64,000 bases of DNA, from the NCBI RefSeq assembly GCF_013004105.1, contig NZ_CP053085.1, positions 4,278,001-4,342,000 of the forward strand, given 5' to 3'. Numbering within the stretch: the stretch's first letter is position 1; the number at the start of each line of letters is the position of its first letter. This stretch comes from Gemmatimonas groenlandica (lineage in GTDB: Bacteria; Gemmatimonadota; Gemmatimonadetes; Gemmatimonadales; Gemmatimonadaceae). A program made the translations under genes and the position numbers. Positions 8,838 to 52,520 of the stretch are shown piece by piece. Under the pieces are notes generated by a model that had not been told where the DNA came from, ran no database searches, and worked only from the letters and a program-made list of their open reading frames with translations.

Positions 8838-8864
8838 GCCGGAATTTGTCGGCGTTTTATTTTT
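8838..8864 (+). terminator. Weak candidate intrinsic terminator
   Basis: Fourteen bases after the stop of the membrane protein gene, GCCG (8838-8841) can pair with CGGC (8850-8853) across an 8-base loop. A T-rich run follows (TTTTATTTTT, 8855-8864). The stem is only 4-5 bp, so termination strength is doubtful, but the T run stands out in this GC-rich sequence and sits just before the repeat array. Confidence 0.35.
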
Positions 8865-8868
8865 GGAT

Positions 8869-9395
8869 ACGGACGGAAACCAGCGGTTCCCGCCTGCCAC
8901 GGATACGAACTGAGAAAAACCGATAGCAGCCAATCATCGTCGTTGTGCGACGGACTCGGTGGCTCGCCGGCTGCGCACCGCAGGGAATGAAAAGCCCGGA
9001 CTGACGATGGCGGTGCCGTGTGCACGGAGCAGATCCGTTCGCAGCCGTTGCTATCGGTTCGTATCCGAATCAGGCGGGAACAGTCTGCTTCAGGTCCTGT
9101 CCCGAGCCCCGACGCCGCGTGATCCAGCGGCCACGGGATACGAACGGACACGTGCTGTTCCAGCTAGAACGGATACGAACTGATAGCAACCGATAGCAGC
9201 CGATCATCGTCGTTCTGCGACGGACTCGGTGGCTCGCCGGCTGTTCACGGCAGGGAACGAAAAGCCCGGACTGACGATGGCGGTGCCGTGTGCACGGAGC
9301 AGATTCGTTCGCAGCCGTGGCTATCGGTTCGTATCCGAGTCAGGCAGGAACAGTCTGCTTCAGGTCCTGTCCCGAGCCCCGGCGCCGCGTGATCG
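8869..9395. repeat. Tandem palindromic repeat array, family 1, two copies (270-bp period)
   Basis: Fills most of the 589-bp gap between two convergent genes (stops at 8824 and 9414). Two direct copies lie at about 8899-9124 and 9169-9394, exactly 270 bp apart and nearly identical. Each copy is an imperfect palindrome: a left arm with ACGGATACGAACTGA and a right arm with GCTATCGGTTCGTATCCG, separated by a core of about 100 bases. The core contains GCGACGGACTCGGTGGCTCG, a small hairpin CCGTG-TG-CACGG (near 9017-9028) and CACGGAGCAGATCCGTTCG. The same core elements recur at 12.3-13.3 kb. No coding frame is conserved. Function is unknown. Confidence 0.9.
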
Positions 9396-12344: not shown

Positions 12345-13322
12345 GACGGGATATCAACAGAAACGGACTGTTCCAGCCTGACGCGGATACGAACCGACAC
12401 GAACGGATAACAACCGATTATCGTCGAGGCGCGACGGACTCAGCGGCTCGACGGCTGTTGTGTTCAGGAAATTGAACGCCCCGTGTGCGAGGGGAAGCCG
12501 TCCCACTCACGGAGCCGATCCGTTCGTAGCCGCTTCTGTCCGTTCATATCCGTGTCAGGCTGGAACCGCGGTTTCTGTTCCTATCCTGCTGGTGGGATAC
12601 AAATTGAAACCAGCAGTTCCAGCCTGACACGGATACGAACCGATACAAACGGAGAACAACCGATCATCCTCGATACGCGACGGACTCGGCGGCTCGACGG
12701 CTGTTCACGTCAAAAGATTGACCCCCCGTATCCACGGGGATTCCGTCGAACGCACGGAGCCGATCCGTTCGTAGCCGCTTCTGTCCGTTCATATCCGTGT
12801 CAGGCTGGAACCGCGGTTTCTGTTCCTATCCTGCTGGTGGGATACAAATTGAAACCAGCAGTTCCAGCCTGACACGGATACGAACCGATACAAACGGAGA
12901 ACAACCGATCATCCTCGATACGCGACGGACTCGGCGGCTCGACGGCTGTTCACGTCAAAAGATTGACCCCCCGTATCCACGGGGATTCCGTCGAACGCAC
13001 GGAGCCGATCCGTTCGTAGCCGCTTCTGTCCGTTCATATCCGTGTCAGGGAGGAACCGCTGTTTCTGTTCCTATCCTGCTGGTGGGATACAAATTGAAAC
13101 CAGCGGTTCCAGCCTGACACGGATACGAACCGATACGAATGGATAACAACTGATCATCCTCGATACGCGACGGACTCGGCGGCTCGACGACTGTTCATGT
13201 CAAAAAATTGAACGCCCCGTGTCCACGGGGATTCCGTCGAAAGCACGGAGCCGATCCGTTCGTAGCCGCTTCTGTCCGTTCATATCCGTGTCAGGCTGGA
13301 ACCGCGGTTTCGGTTCCTATCC
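12345..13322. repeat. Tandem palindromic repeat array, family 1, four copies (245-bp period)
   Basis: Occupies nearly all of the 1078-bp gap between the aldo/keto reductase and the DGPF gene. Copies start near 12345, 12586, 12831 and 13076; the last three are 245 bp apart. Copies 2 and 3 differ at only three positions that I can see (13050, 13051, 13060). Each copy is an imperfect palindrome. In copy 2, GTTCCAGCCTGACACGGATA (12616-12635) is the exact reverse complement of 12792-12811. The core carries GCGACGGACTCGGCGGCTCG, a hairpin CCCCGT-ATCC-ACGGGG (12724-12739) and CACGGAGCCGATCCGTTCG. It matches the core of the array at 8.9-9.4 kb. The period is not a multiple of three, so the open frames inside are not genes. 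Confidence 0.93.
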
Positions 13323-13411: not shown

Positions 13412-13765
13412 ATGAAGTATCTCTGCCTGATCTATGACGCTGAGGCCACGCTGGCCGCCATGTCGCCCACCGAGATGGGCGCCTTCATGGGCGAATACGG
13501 CACGTTCACCAATGACATTATCGCCAGCGGCAACATGATCGCCGGCGAGGAGCTGCAGCCGGTGCACACCGCGACCACCGTGCGCATTCGCAACGGTAAG
13601 ATGTCCACCACCGACGGGCCGTTCGCCGAGACCAAAGAGCAGCTGGGGGGCTTTTACTTGATCAACGCCCGCGATCTCAACGAGGCCCTTCAGATCGCGT
13701 CGCGCATCCCGTCAGCGCGTACCGGCAGCATCGAAGTACGGCCCATCTCCACCCAGATGGCTTGA
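13412..13765 (+). CDS. YCII-related (DGPF) domain protein
   Basis: 117 residues. It has the DGPF-family motif TTDGPFAETKEQLGGFYLI (residues 66-84) and the usual N-terminal MKYLCLIYDAE strand. The fold is ferredoxin-like, related to YciI, but enzyme activity of DGPF proteins is not established. The stop overlaps the TTG/ATG start region of an ECF sigma factor. DGPF gene plus sigma factor with a C-terminal TPR-like extension is the known context of ECF group 42, in which the two are co-regulated. Confidence 0.9.
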   Translation: MKYLCLIYDAEATLAAMSPTEMGAFMGEYGTFTNDIIASGNMIAGEELQPVHTATTVRIRNGKMSTTDGPFAETKEQLGGFYLINARDLNEALQIASRIPSARTGSIEVRPISTQMA

Positions 13766-13773
13766 GTACGACC

Positions 13774-14997
13774 ATGCGCGACGCGATCGAGGCCGTGTAC
13801 CGGGAGGAGTCGCGTCGCATTCTCGCCACCCTGATTCGGCTCCTCGGCGATTTCGATCTCGCCGAGGAGGCGATGCAGGATGCCTTCACGGCGGCGGTCG
13901 AGCGGTGGCCGTTGGAAGGCATGCCGGCCAACCCGCGCAGCTGGCTCATCTCGGCCGGTCGATTCCGTGCCATCGACCGACTGCGCCGCGCCACCCGCTT
14001 CGCGGAACTCGACCTACCCAGCGTCGACGTGCACGAGCCTGCGCTCGACGACGAGACCATCGCCGACGATCAGCTACGCCTCCTGTTCACCTGCTGTCAT
14101 CCGGCGCTCTCGCCTGATGCGCAAATCGCGCTCACGCTACGCGAGGTGTGTGGGCTCACCACCGAGGCCATCGCCCACGCGTTTATCACATCGCCGCCGA
14201 CCATCGCGCAGCGCATCGTGCGCGCGAAAGCCAAGATCCGCGGTGCGCGCATTCCGTACGCCGTGCCGCTGCCCGCTGATCTCCCCGATCTGCTCGACGC
14301 CGTGCTGCACGTGATCTATCTCGTGTTCAATGAAGGCTACTCGCCGTCGAGTGGGGCCGACGTGACTCACGCGTCACTGTCGGCCGAGGCGATCCGCCTG
14401 GGGCGCGAGCTCATGACGCTGCTCGATGAGCCCGAGCTGCACGGACTCGTGGCGCTGATGCTGTTGCATGAGGCCCGACGCGATACACGATCCAGTGCCA
14501 ACGGCGACATCGTCTTGCTGGAAGATCAGGACCGCGGGCGGTGGAACCGCGAGATGATCGCCGACGGCAGTCAGTTGGTCAAACGCGCTCTACGAAGCCG
14601 ACGCATTGGTGCGTTCACGTTGCAGGCGGCGATCGCGGCGGTGCACGCCGAGGCGCCATCAGCCGACGCAACTGATTGGCGCAAAATCGTCGCGCTCTAC
14701 GATCTGCTCCGGCGCGCCGATCCGTCGCCCATCGTGGAACTCAATCGCGCGGTTGCGGTCGCTATGCGCGATGGCGCGGCGATCGGTGTCGCCATCATCG
14801 ACGACCTGTTCGCGCGCGGTGAGCTGGGGCAGTACCGCTTTGCACACGCTGCGCGCGCCGAGCTCTGTCGACGGGCGGGTCGCTTCGCCGACGCGCGCGA
14901 CGGCTTCGAGCGAGCGCTCGCGTTGAGCGAGTCGGCGCCGGAGCGACGACTGATCGAGTTGCGGCTGGGCTCACTCGCCGGGCATTCCAACGAGTGA
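13774..14997 (+). CDS. ECF42-type RNA polymerase sigma factor with C-terminal extension
   Basis: 407 residues from ATG 13774; a TTG at 13762 overlapping the previous stop would add four residues. Sigma region 2 spans about residues 8-70 (LLGDFDLAEEAMQDAFTAAV...NPRSWLISAGRFRAIDRLRR). Region 4 spans about 95-155 (LTLREVCGLTTEAIAHAF..PTIAQRIVRAKAKIR). A helical extension of over 200 residues follows (LVFNEGYSPSSG, LMLLHEARRDTR, VELNRAVAVAM). This is the DUF6596/TPR-like tail of ECF42 factors, which lack a classical anti-sigma partner; the tail itself is reported to control activity. It is expected to direct transcription of the upstream DGPF gene. Confidence 0.9.
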   Translation: MRDAIEAVYREESRRILATLIRLLGDFDLAEEAMQDAFTAAVERWPLEGMPANPRSWLISAGRFRAIDRLRRATRFAELDLPSVDVHEPALDDETIADDQLRLLFTCCHPALSPDAQIALTLREVCGLTTEAIAHAFITSPPTIAQRIVRAKAKIRGARIPYAVPLPADLPDLLDAVLHVIYLVFNEGYSPSSGADVTHASLSAEAIRLGRELMTLLDEPELHGLVALMLLHEARRDTRSSANGDIVLLEDQDRGRWNREMIADGSQLVKRALRSRRIGAFTLQAAIAAVHAEAPSADATDWRKIVALYDLLRRADPSPIVELNRAVAVAMRDGAAIGVAIIDDLFARGELGQYRFAHAARAELCRRAGRFADARDGFERALALSESAPERRLIELRLGSLAGHSNE

Positions 14998-15086
14998 ACA
15001 GATCGCGCTGCGGTTGACCGGATCCGAAGCAGCGCGCATGCTTCTGGGACAAGACGAAGCTCCAAACCACGCCCGCCCCTGTTCGC

Positions 15087-17348
15087 ATGCCCTTGCCCGA
15101 TTGGCAGCAGACTCTCCGTGCACTGGACGTTGGCGTGGTGGTACAGGCGCGCGATCTGTCCATCGTGTACGCGAACCCCAAGGCCACCGAGATGCTTGGG
15201 ATCGCCGCTGCCGAGATGACCTCGCGAACGACCGATGACGCACGATGGGATGTCATCGAGGCGACCGGCGACCCCGTCGCGCCGGATGAGCATCCGGGGC
15301 CGCGCGCCTTGCGTTCCGGCGAACCCGTGCGCGGCGTTATCCTCGGTGTGCGCCGCGACGATAGGCCGGAACGGGCCTGGATCCAGGTGTCGGCCATTCC
15401 TGAGCGATCGGACAACGGCGTCGTCGAGCGCGTCGTGATTACCCTGAGTGACGTCAGCGATGCGCACCGCGAGTATCGCGAGCAGGATGCGGTGTACAAG
15501 TCGGTGTTCCGCTCGATGTCAGAAGGCCTGGTGCTACACGCGCCGGACGGGTCGATCCGTGCGGCCAACGCCGCGGCAGAGCGTGTCCTCGGGCTCACCG
15601 TCGATCAGATGAGCGGACGCGCCGCCACCGATCCGCGATGGCAGCTCGTGACGACCGACGGCGTGGCGGCTGACGCCACCGTCATCCCGTCGGAAATTGC
15701 CCGTCGCACGGGCCAACCCGCCGGCGAGACCATTCTCGGCGTGTCGCGTGCCAGTGGTGCCCTGGCTTGGGTGGCCGTGCGCGCCGACCCGATGTTCGAC
15801 CCCGGCGACGTCGCATTGCGCGGCATTGTCGCGACCTTTACCGACATCACGGCCGAACGGGAGACCACGCTCGCGCTCGAGGCGAGTCGCGCGCAGATCC
15901 AACGCGTGCTCGATGCGGTACCTGGTGTCGTGTATCAGTTCCTTCGACCCACCGAGGGTCCCGACCGGATGCCATTTCTGGCCGGACGAATCCGCGAGGT
16001 GCTCGGGGTGGATCCCCAAGTTGCCGCCGCAAACCCGATGCTGCTGCCGACGCTACTCGGCCAGTCCGAGCAGGCCGCCCTGTTCGCCAACATCGACGCG
16101 TACGTCGCGAAGCAGGAGATCTTCGATCACGTGCTGTCGGTCACGCTGCCCGACCGGGGGCTGCGCTGGCTGCGTGTGCACGGCATACCGGAGCGCACCG
16201 ACGAGGGCGTCCTGTACACCGGGGTGATCCTCGACGTCACCGAGGAGCACCGGATGGCAGAGGCGTTGCGACGCCGACAGCGGCGCGAGGCGATGGGCGA
16301 CATGGCGGCGGGGATCGCGCACAACTTCAACAACATGCTGGCCGTCATACTCCCCAACGTCGAGATGGCGCGGGACGACGCGTCGCCGGAAACGCGCGCA
16401 TCGTTGTCGGACGCGGCACGTGCCGCCAGCAGCGCCGCCGATCTTGTGCGGCGTATGCTCGCCCTTGGTCGGGCGGAGCCGACGGCCGCGGATGCATCGG
16501 TCGATCTCGCCGCGATCACGCGCGAAGCGGTGCACATGTGCCGACAAACCTTCGATCGCGGCATCACGATCGTGGATGACATCGCACTGCCGGTGGCGTT
16601 CGTGCGAAGCAGCGCGAGTGAGCTGCAGCAGGTTGTGCTCAATCTGTGTCTCAACGCCCGTGACGCGATGCTCGGAGGCGACCGCTGCCGACTCTTCGTG
16701 CGATTGGAGGCGGACGGGGCCGATGCCGTGAGTTTGACGGTGCGCGATTCCGGTCACGGCATGTCGCGTGACACGCTGCAGCGACTTGGAGAGCCGTTCT
16801 TCTCAACCAAGGGTCCGGGACGAGGGACCGGGCTCGGCCTGGCGTCGGCCTTTCACAGTATCGCCGACGCGGGCGGCACCTGGCGGGTTGAGTCCACGCT
16901 GGGGGATGGCACCGCATTCTTCGTGCGCCTGCCGCTCGTCGCGCCGCAGACCAACGAATCCTCCGCGTCGTCACCGTCGCAATACGTGTTTCCGGATGGC
17001 GTTGTCCTGCTGATCGACGACGAGCCGATGGTGCGCACCGCTGTTTCGCGTCAACTAACCAGAGGTGGCGTGCGTGTGGAGGTGGCAGAGAGTGCCGAGG
17101 TCGCGCTTGACTGGTTGCGCGAGGTTCGCACGGAGCCCGTTCTCGCGGTCATTCTCGACCTGTCGATGCCCGGGTTGTCGGGCGCGCAGGCGCTACCGCA
17201 GATCCGCTCCTCCCTTCCCCGCGTGCCCGTCATTGTGCTCTCGGGGCACGTTTCCGACGCGCAGGAGCTCGTTGGCGCCGCGATGGTACTGCAGAAGCCG
17301 ATCAGCGGTCGCGAACTGCTGGATGCACTGCAGTCCGTGATCGGATGA
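15087..17348 (+). CDS. Hybrid histidine kinase: three PAS domains, HisKA, HATPase, receiver
   Basis: 753 residues without transmembrane helices, so a cytoplasmic sensor. PAS-like units cover about residues 1-130, 135-260 and 265-390. The phosphoacceptor is His412 in AAGIAHNFNNML, the H-box variant seen in many hybrid kinases. The ATP-binding domain follows, with the N-box VVLNLCLNARDAML, G1 box RDSGHGMS and G2 box GRGTGLGLA. A C-terminal receiver has acidic DDEP and the phosphorylation site Asp691 (ILDLSMPG). No dedicated response regulator lies next to it. The signal is unknown; PAS domains here could bind a ligand, haem or flavin. The gene ends 16 bp from the convergent glgC stop. Confidence 0.88.
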   Translation: MPLPDWQQTLRALDVGVVVQARDLSIVYANPKATEMLGIAAAEMTSRTTDDARWDVIEATGDPVAPDEHPGPRALRSGEPVRGVILGVRRDDRPERAWIQVSAIPERSDNGVVERVVITLSDVSDAHREYREQDAVYKSVFRSMSEGLVLHAPDGSIRAANAAAERVLGLTVDQMSGRAATDPRWQLVTTDGVAADATVIPSEIARRTGQPAGETILGVSRASGALAWVAVRADPMFDPGDVALRGIVATFTDITAERETTLALEASRAQIQRVLDAVPGVVYQFLRPTEGPDRMPFLAGRIREVLGVDPQVAAANPMLLPTLLGQSEQAALFANIDAYVAKQEIFDHVLSVTLPDRGLRWLRVHGIPERTDEGVLYTGVILDVTEEHRMAEALRRRQRREAMGDMAAGIAHNFNNMLAVILPNVEMARDDASPETRASLSDAARAASSAADLVRRMLALGRAEPTAADASVDLAAITREAVHMCRQTFDRGITIVDDIALPVAFVRSSASELQQVVLNLCLNARDAMLGGDRCRLFVRLEADGADAVSLTVRDSGHGMSRDTLQRLGEPFFSTKGPGRGTGLGLASAFHSIADAGGTWRVESTLGDGTAFFVRLPLVAPQTNESSASSPSQYVFPDGVVLLIDDEPMVRTAVSRQLTRGGVRVEVAESAEVALDWLREVRTEPVLAVILDLSMPGLSGAQALPQIRSSLPRVPVIVLSGHVSDAQELVGAAMVLQKPISGRELLDALQSVIG

Positions 17349-24019: not shown

Positions 24020-24290
24020 CCGTACCGCGCGGATTCAGTACTCAGTGAACTGGCTTCAGAACTCTGATCGGTATAGTGTTCAGAATCGAGCAGCGACAGT
24101 GCTCAGTACCGAGCGGGTTTCGTGGAGCTGACGGTTCGCGGGGTCTGTCGCGAGCCGTCGCCCCAACGCATCCCCGCCGTCGCACGCGCAGTCAGGATAT
24201 TCTCGGTACTGAGCACTGCGGCTGCTCGATTCTGACCACTATACCAAGTCTGACGCCTGTCGCCAGAGCACTGAGAACTGAGTACTGAGC
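24020..24290. repeat. Long palindromic element, family 2, copy A
   Basis: Fills the 310-bp gap between convergent stops (23991 and 24302). Inner arms 24070-24113 and 24202-24245 are near-perfect reverse complements over 44 bases, from GGTATAGTG to the TACCGAG end. Outer ends AGTACTCAGT (24037-24046) and ACTGAGTACT (24277-24286) also pair. The central loop contains its own hairpin, GACGGTTCGCG with CGCGAGCCGTC near 24130-24160. A related copy with compensatory arm changes lies at 52.3-52.5 kb. The open frames in it run through palindrome and are not genes. Confidence 0.92.
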
Positions 24291-52304: not shown

Positions 52305-52520
52305 CAGGTACAGGCGTCAGACTGTTTATAGTGTTCAGCGTTCAGCAGCTACAGTGCACAGTTTCGAGAATTTCCTTCGTGACGTGCGCGGCGCGGATTT
52401 GTGGTTCGCCCGTCCGATGCGCCGCCAGTCAAACTCTCGCAACTGTGGACTGTAGCTGCTGAACGCTGACCACTATACAAAGTCTGGCGCCAGAATTCTG
52501 AAAACTGAGTACTCTGCCGT
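52305..52520. repeat. Long palindromic element, family 2, copy B
   Basis: Fills the gap between convergent stops (52293 and 52521). Arms 52327-52363 and 52441-52477 are reverse complements with two mismatches. Pairing continues outward (GGCGTCAGACT near 52313 with AGTCTGGCGCC near 52481). The loop has its own stem GCGGCGC/GCGCCGC. Relative to copy A at 24 kb, the arm segment TCAGAATCGAGCAGC is TCAGCGTTCAGCAGC here, with matching changes in the other arm. Confidence 0.92.

Follow-up and report, generated by a model that had tools for sequence, protein, structure and literature searches.

Structure of the tandem array

The stretch of DNA analyzed here (the window) covers 64,000 nucleotides of the Gemmatimonas groenlandica genome, which is 5,179,092 bp long and consists of one contig. 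Just downstream of an aldo/keto reductase gene it contains an array of long palindromes. The array (positions 12348-13322) is composed of four tandem, strongly palindromic units of 238-239 bp on the plus strand: unit 1 (12348-12586, 239 bp), unit 2 (12594-12831, 238 bp), unit 3 (12839-13076, 238 bp) and unit 4 (13084-13322, 239 bp). Successive units begin at intervals of 246, 245 and 245 bp and are separated by an identical 7-bp spacer (TGCTGGT), and TRF detected the array at 12370-13322 with a period of 245 and 3.9 copies. This agrees with the sequence-only reading, which had described four tandem copies with a period of exactly 245 bp for copies 2 to 4. Between units 2 and 3 there are only the three differences counted in that reading (12805, 12806 and 12815), and unit 4 differs from unit 2 at 13 positions; unit 1 is the most divergent copy, with 34-38 of 239 positions different from the other three. 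The contrast between 3 and 34-38 differences supports the proposal that units 2 and 3 were recently duplicated or homogenized, and array copy number varies between species at orthologous sites (see below).

Within each unit, arms of approximately 58 bp that are 76-78% complementary enclose a variable core. For unit 2, the left arm (12608-12665, plus strand) carries GATAnnAAC words 10 bp apart, the core of the long subtype (12666-12761, 96 bp) includes a small GC hairpin and the right arm (12762-12819) is 78% complementary to the left one. The predicted RNA fold of a single unit was far below those of shuffled sequences, with z values of -8.8 and -10.9 for the two strands. The small GC hairpin (CCCCGTG..CACGGGG), which had been ascribed to the core of each copy, occurs in units 2 to 4 and, in a weaker form, in unit 1. 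The arms also pair across the junctions between units, so that the two alternative folds proposed earlier can indeed be formed; however, palindromes in tandem give both automatically, so they are no evidence of a switch, and nothing independent supports the junction fold.

Unit 1 starts 14 bp past the stop codon of the reductase gene (PF00248, 11290-12333, plus strand), and a YCII-domain gene (PF03795, 13412-13765, plus strand) lies downstream of the array. In G. groenlandica, this gene together with DUF6596 sigma-factor and sensor-kinase genes (13412-17348) separates the array from glgC. Six relatives lack these three genes there, and their reductase gene is directly convergent with glgC.

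A dispersed family of palindromes in the G. groenlandica genome

The sequence-only reading had missed that the array is part of a dispersed family. Across the whole genome, a profile of the four array units resolved 21 loci with a total of about 35 copies, hereafter family A, and the same places were obtained by a one-unit genome search and by an independent pattern search (18 bases, at most 2 mismatches; the control pattern had 0 matches in this genome). A second array, of two copies with a start-to-start distance of 271 bp, is located in the window at 8864-9374 between convergent genes (8824+ / 9414-); its first copy (8864-9103, plus strand) belongs to the long subtype and is followed by the second at 9135-9374 on the same strand. 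Family A units are 190-300 bp overall, have conserved ends (GGGATA...TATCCC) and carry the GATAnnAAC words at 10-bp spacing in the left arm. The arms, which make up approximately half of the element, are shared by two core subtypes, a long one of ~240 bp and a short one of ~195-210 bp with a few longer members. Family A copies are thus dispersed, lie at the 3' ends of genes and combine conserved terminal arms with a variable core.

These findings bear on the simplest explanation, namely that the array arose by simple local slippage or duplication and has no wider identity. The near-identity of units 2 and 3 would be expected from such a process. However, further copies were found in other parts of the genome and, in other species, at orthologous sites; they refute this explanation and leave it virtually no chance of being correct. 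The outcome that the sequence-only reading had named as pointing to simple slippage DNA was therefore not observed.

The earlier impression that the element belongs to no named family holds: Rfam gave no match to the array at gathering cut-offs, so that a known RNA family was rejected, and literature searches by organism, architecture and repeat words found no description of family A. Integron attC sites and CRISPR repeats were judged by sequence; no conserved integrase core site was seen, and the unit is 240 bp long. An exact-pattern scan among named genomes found family A only on contigs of one Gemmatimonadetes MAG, RE-26jul17-69.

Family A copies are found no more than tens of bp from a stop codon and frequently between convergent genes (11 convergent, 8 co-directional and 2 divergent loci versus 207, 724 and 175 background junctions, with genes taken from simple ORF/GC3 calls). 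This location directly past stop codons and the enrichment between convergent genes, as well as the very stable fold on both strands and the few terminator-like sites on the minus strand of the array, would suit a hairpin that acts as RNA, either as a large bidirectional terminator or as a 3'-end stabilizer for convergent genes. On the other hand, the arms appear to be conserved as sequence and not by pairing. Among 61 arm pairs, 18 are invariant and 20% of arm cells are unpaired. Changes on both sides were found in 13 pairs versus 10.6 +- 1.9 in shuffles (75/500), a value within reach of relatedness alone in an alignment that mixed paralogous and orthologous copies. The covariation analysis suggested earlier was therefore not clearly beyond shuffles, and a selected hairpin is unsupported. 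In addition, REP-like repeats occupy the same location (PMC3733652).

Other palindrome families and RAYT transposases

Family A is not the only family of long palindromes in this genome. When eighty 20-kb pieces (1.6 Mb) were scanned de novo, 50 palindromes with a score of at least 17 were identified, compared with 0 in Markov-2 shuffles. They represent several families built of short words and lie mostly past gene ends (18 convergent, 22 co-directional and 0 divergent for all sampled palindromes versus 207/724/175 for all junctions). Two palindromes of family B are found in the window, one (24070-24245) at a junction where the related genome G011 has family A instead and the other at 52313-52491. 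In G017 (L129) and G028 (L128), the core between the arms of the family B element has the opposite orientation, with respect to the neighboring genes, from that in five other species. In G021, 4 long palindromes were found in 400 kb; this genome has long intergenic palindromes with other words (L183, L194 and L195), such as GATGACACGGAAACGCGCGGAAAC.

Considering that family A is palindromic, intergenic, located 3' of genes and arranged in tandem groups, a REPIN/REP family mobilized by a RAYT tyrosine transposase was one candidate. REPs are 20-40 bp long and carry a GTAG or CGTC tag that is unpaired; their families are mostly distributed genome-wide (PMC3733652). Family A has no such tag at its ends and is roughly sixfold the usual size. 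A PF01797 search detected no RAYT (Y1) transposase in either G. groenlandica or G011, the two genomes rich in family A, and the RAYT-type Y1 genes of G025, G014 and G024 (L101, L102 and L103) are flanked by a different hairpin, TTCAAGGGGTCAGAGTCGTTGAAC (family K). A RAYT/REPIN origin of family A is thus largely refuted and appears highly improbable. The family K hairpin TTCAAGGGGTCAGAGTCGTTGAAC is also present in the G. groenlandica genome, without a Y1 gene. All genome pattern and BLAST matches pair as short elements, and no transposase bracketed by family A arms was seen.

Family A at orthologous junctions in related species

Among 29 members of the genus, whose genomes are fragmented assemblies, only G011 has abundant family A copies, and they are rare in G024 and G025. 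Comparison of flanking genes showed that family A positions are often orthologous between species. At the reductase-glgC junction, family A is present in G. groenlandica and G011, and an unrelated palindrome of family B occupies the junction in G014, G015, G017, G024, G025 and G028. Family B also adjoins glgC in G027, with the main part of the reductase gene on another contig.

Similar replacements, gains and losses were observed at other family A junctions. At 3.435 Mb, family A is found in G. groenlandica, G025 and G011 (two copies) and another palindrome in G015. At 3.605 Mb, a further palindrome occupies the junction in G011 and G015, with nothing in G025; family E is found in G015 at 4.2625 Mb. 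The junction at 3.788 Mb is empty in three relatives and that at 4.345 Mb is empty in G015 and G025. Left-arm-like remnants of family A were detected at 3.059 Mb (G025) and 3.453 Mb (G015 and G025). Copy numbers at the same junction differ between genomes (4 versus 1, 1 versus 3 and 1 versus 2). Orthologous junctions may therefore hold family A in a different number of copies, remnants of its arms, an unrelated palindrome or no element at all. Such gains and losses, the remnants and the changes in copy number are directly visible, as is tandem duplication of the unit with its spacer.

The junction at 3.835 Mb carries at least two copies in G011, and G015 and G025 have only a short hairpin resembling an intrinsic terminator. 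That such a hairpin serves the same junction in two relatives and that several junctions are empty further argue against the reading of family A as a functional RNA hairpin, which we consider rather unlikely. A terminator or mRNA-end role is conceivable, although the data do not require one.

Because many family A positions are common to different species, ongoing transposition could not be demonstrated. No target-site duplication was evident by eye at filled or empty junctions; the flanks of the empty sites have diverged too far to define an exact junction.

Distribution relative to the replication origin

In G. groenlandica, dnaA and dnaN (TIGR00362 and TIGR00663) are located at 3.686-3.689 Mb, and the sampled GC skew switches sign near them, noisily. 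Almost all family A loci (20 of 21) lie within 0.66 Mb of dnaA, and their midpoint is within about 15 kb of this gene. The binomial P value is 2e-11 under a uniform null and 4e-7 when the whole palindrome class is used as the null; the 0.66 Mb cut-off was chosen after seeing the data, and neighboring loci are perhaps not independent. According to whole-genome pattern maps, only 12 of 26 family D loci and 3 of 13 family B loci (0 within 0.45 Mb) lie within the same distance, so family A differs from both families in the same genome (P=0.0004 for D and P=0.00002 for B). All three families are nearly missing from the third of the chromosome closest to the terminus: 1 of their 60 loci is more than 1.75 Mb from dnaA, compared with about one third expected. 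Sampled blocks from the terminus-proximal region at ~0.56-1.93 Mb contained no long palindrome, and many were found elsewhere in the genome.

The long core subtype occurs only to the right of dnaA (8/10 versus 0/10, P=0.0007). We also considered local spread of family A along the chromosome: similarity correlated with distance (rho -0.28, P=0.0045), but the correlation reflects the subtype split because it disappears within subtypes (P=0.23 and 0.63). All placeable family A loci of G011 are in the same origin zone, part of them shared by descent; two G011 loci were left unplaced because the mapping search scored 40 of 83 candidates. The single outlying family A copy of G. groenlandica is about 33 kb from a gene (L209:14071-15846, ~1.714 Mb) for a 590-aa protein with two tandem DnaA-type ATPase domains.

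Sequences bound by chromosome-organizing proteins, such as parS and Noc sites, suggest another explanation, that family A is an address of the origin-proximal domain, bound by a protein of this type and kept by selection. The concentration of family A around dnaA, its difference from families B and D, the same zone for all mappable G011 loci and the 10-bp spaced words in the arms are what such an address might show. However, most of the genus has no family A, individual sites are empty in relatives, the cut-off was picked post hoc and G011 loci are partly shared by descent. We regard this explanation as decidedly unlikely. For a broader version, in which family A marks the domain via a putative DNA-binding protein and different zones carry different palindrome families that are interchangeable at fixed junctions, we see a similarly small chance.

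Evolutionary interpretation

On balance, family A is probably, if by no means certainly, a non-coding, non-autonomous, REP/MITE-like interspersed palindrome that has spread, has been kept at the 3' ends of genes and has been locally amplified by recombination. The 21 dispersed loci, the 10-bp spaced words and invariant pairs of the arms, the gene context and the variable orthologous junctions speak for this interpretation. We favor a non-autonomous mobile-type repeat because its arms are conserved in sequence, no RAYT gene was found in G. groenlandica or G011, and those of three relatives are flanked by family K. The arms may have been recognition sites through which some enzyme or recombination process formerly dispersed the element; the mobilizer may have been lost. 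Insertions would survive where they are harmless, just downstream of genes, with selection removing the others. Unequal recombination between direct copies might then expand and contract the arrays and could also homogenize them; any effect of the hairpins on mRNA 3' ends would be secondary. That neither an autonomous partner nor a clear target-site duplication was found counts against this interpretation, as do the many positions shared between species, and the near-restriction to the origin-proximal quarter, its least well explained feature, is unexpected for a freely moving element.

Descriptions of intergenic palindromes in bacteria usually have them dispersed throughout the genome. Compared with known systems, family A resembles REP/BIME elements of the GTAG and CGTC super-families, which are also palindromic, intergenic, near gene 3' ends and grouped, are enriched at convergent and co-directional junctions and form several sequence families per genome (PMC3733652). 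It differs from them in its units of ~240 bp, in the absence of any tag or RAYT found and in its confinement to the origin-proximal quarter. MITEs and ERIC/RU-type elements of bacteria are likewise short and non-coding, with inverted terminal arms, many dispersed intergenic copies and presence/absence differences between relatives, and QMITE2 elements are mainly 3' of ORFs (PMC10969869, PMC2759123). In contrast to MITE/ERIC elements (ERIC compared by description), the arms of family A occupy about half of the element and have 10-bp spaced words, and neither a target-site duplication nor a parental IS was demonstrated. Stem-loop repeat families found by clustering (PMC2267715), also compared by description, are similarly dispersed, intergenic and foldable.

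Family A thus closely resembles known kinds of repeat but is unusual in its origin-proximal restriction, and the presence of unrelated palindromes at the same gene junctions in different species is a second unusual feature. Family A is concentrated symmetrically around the replication origin, while other families in the same genome are not. If this holds in more complete genomes, it would link repeat dynamics to chromosome geography and provide a system open to testing in a phylum that has received little study.
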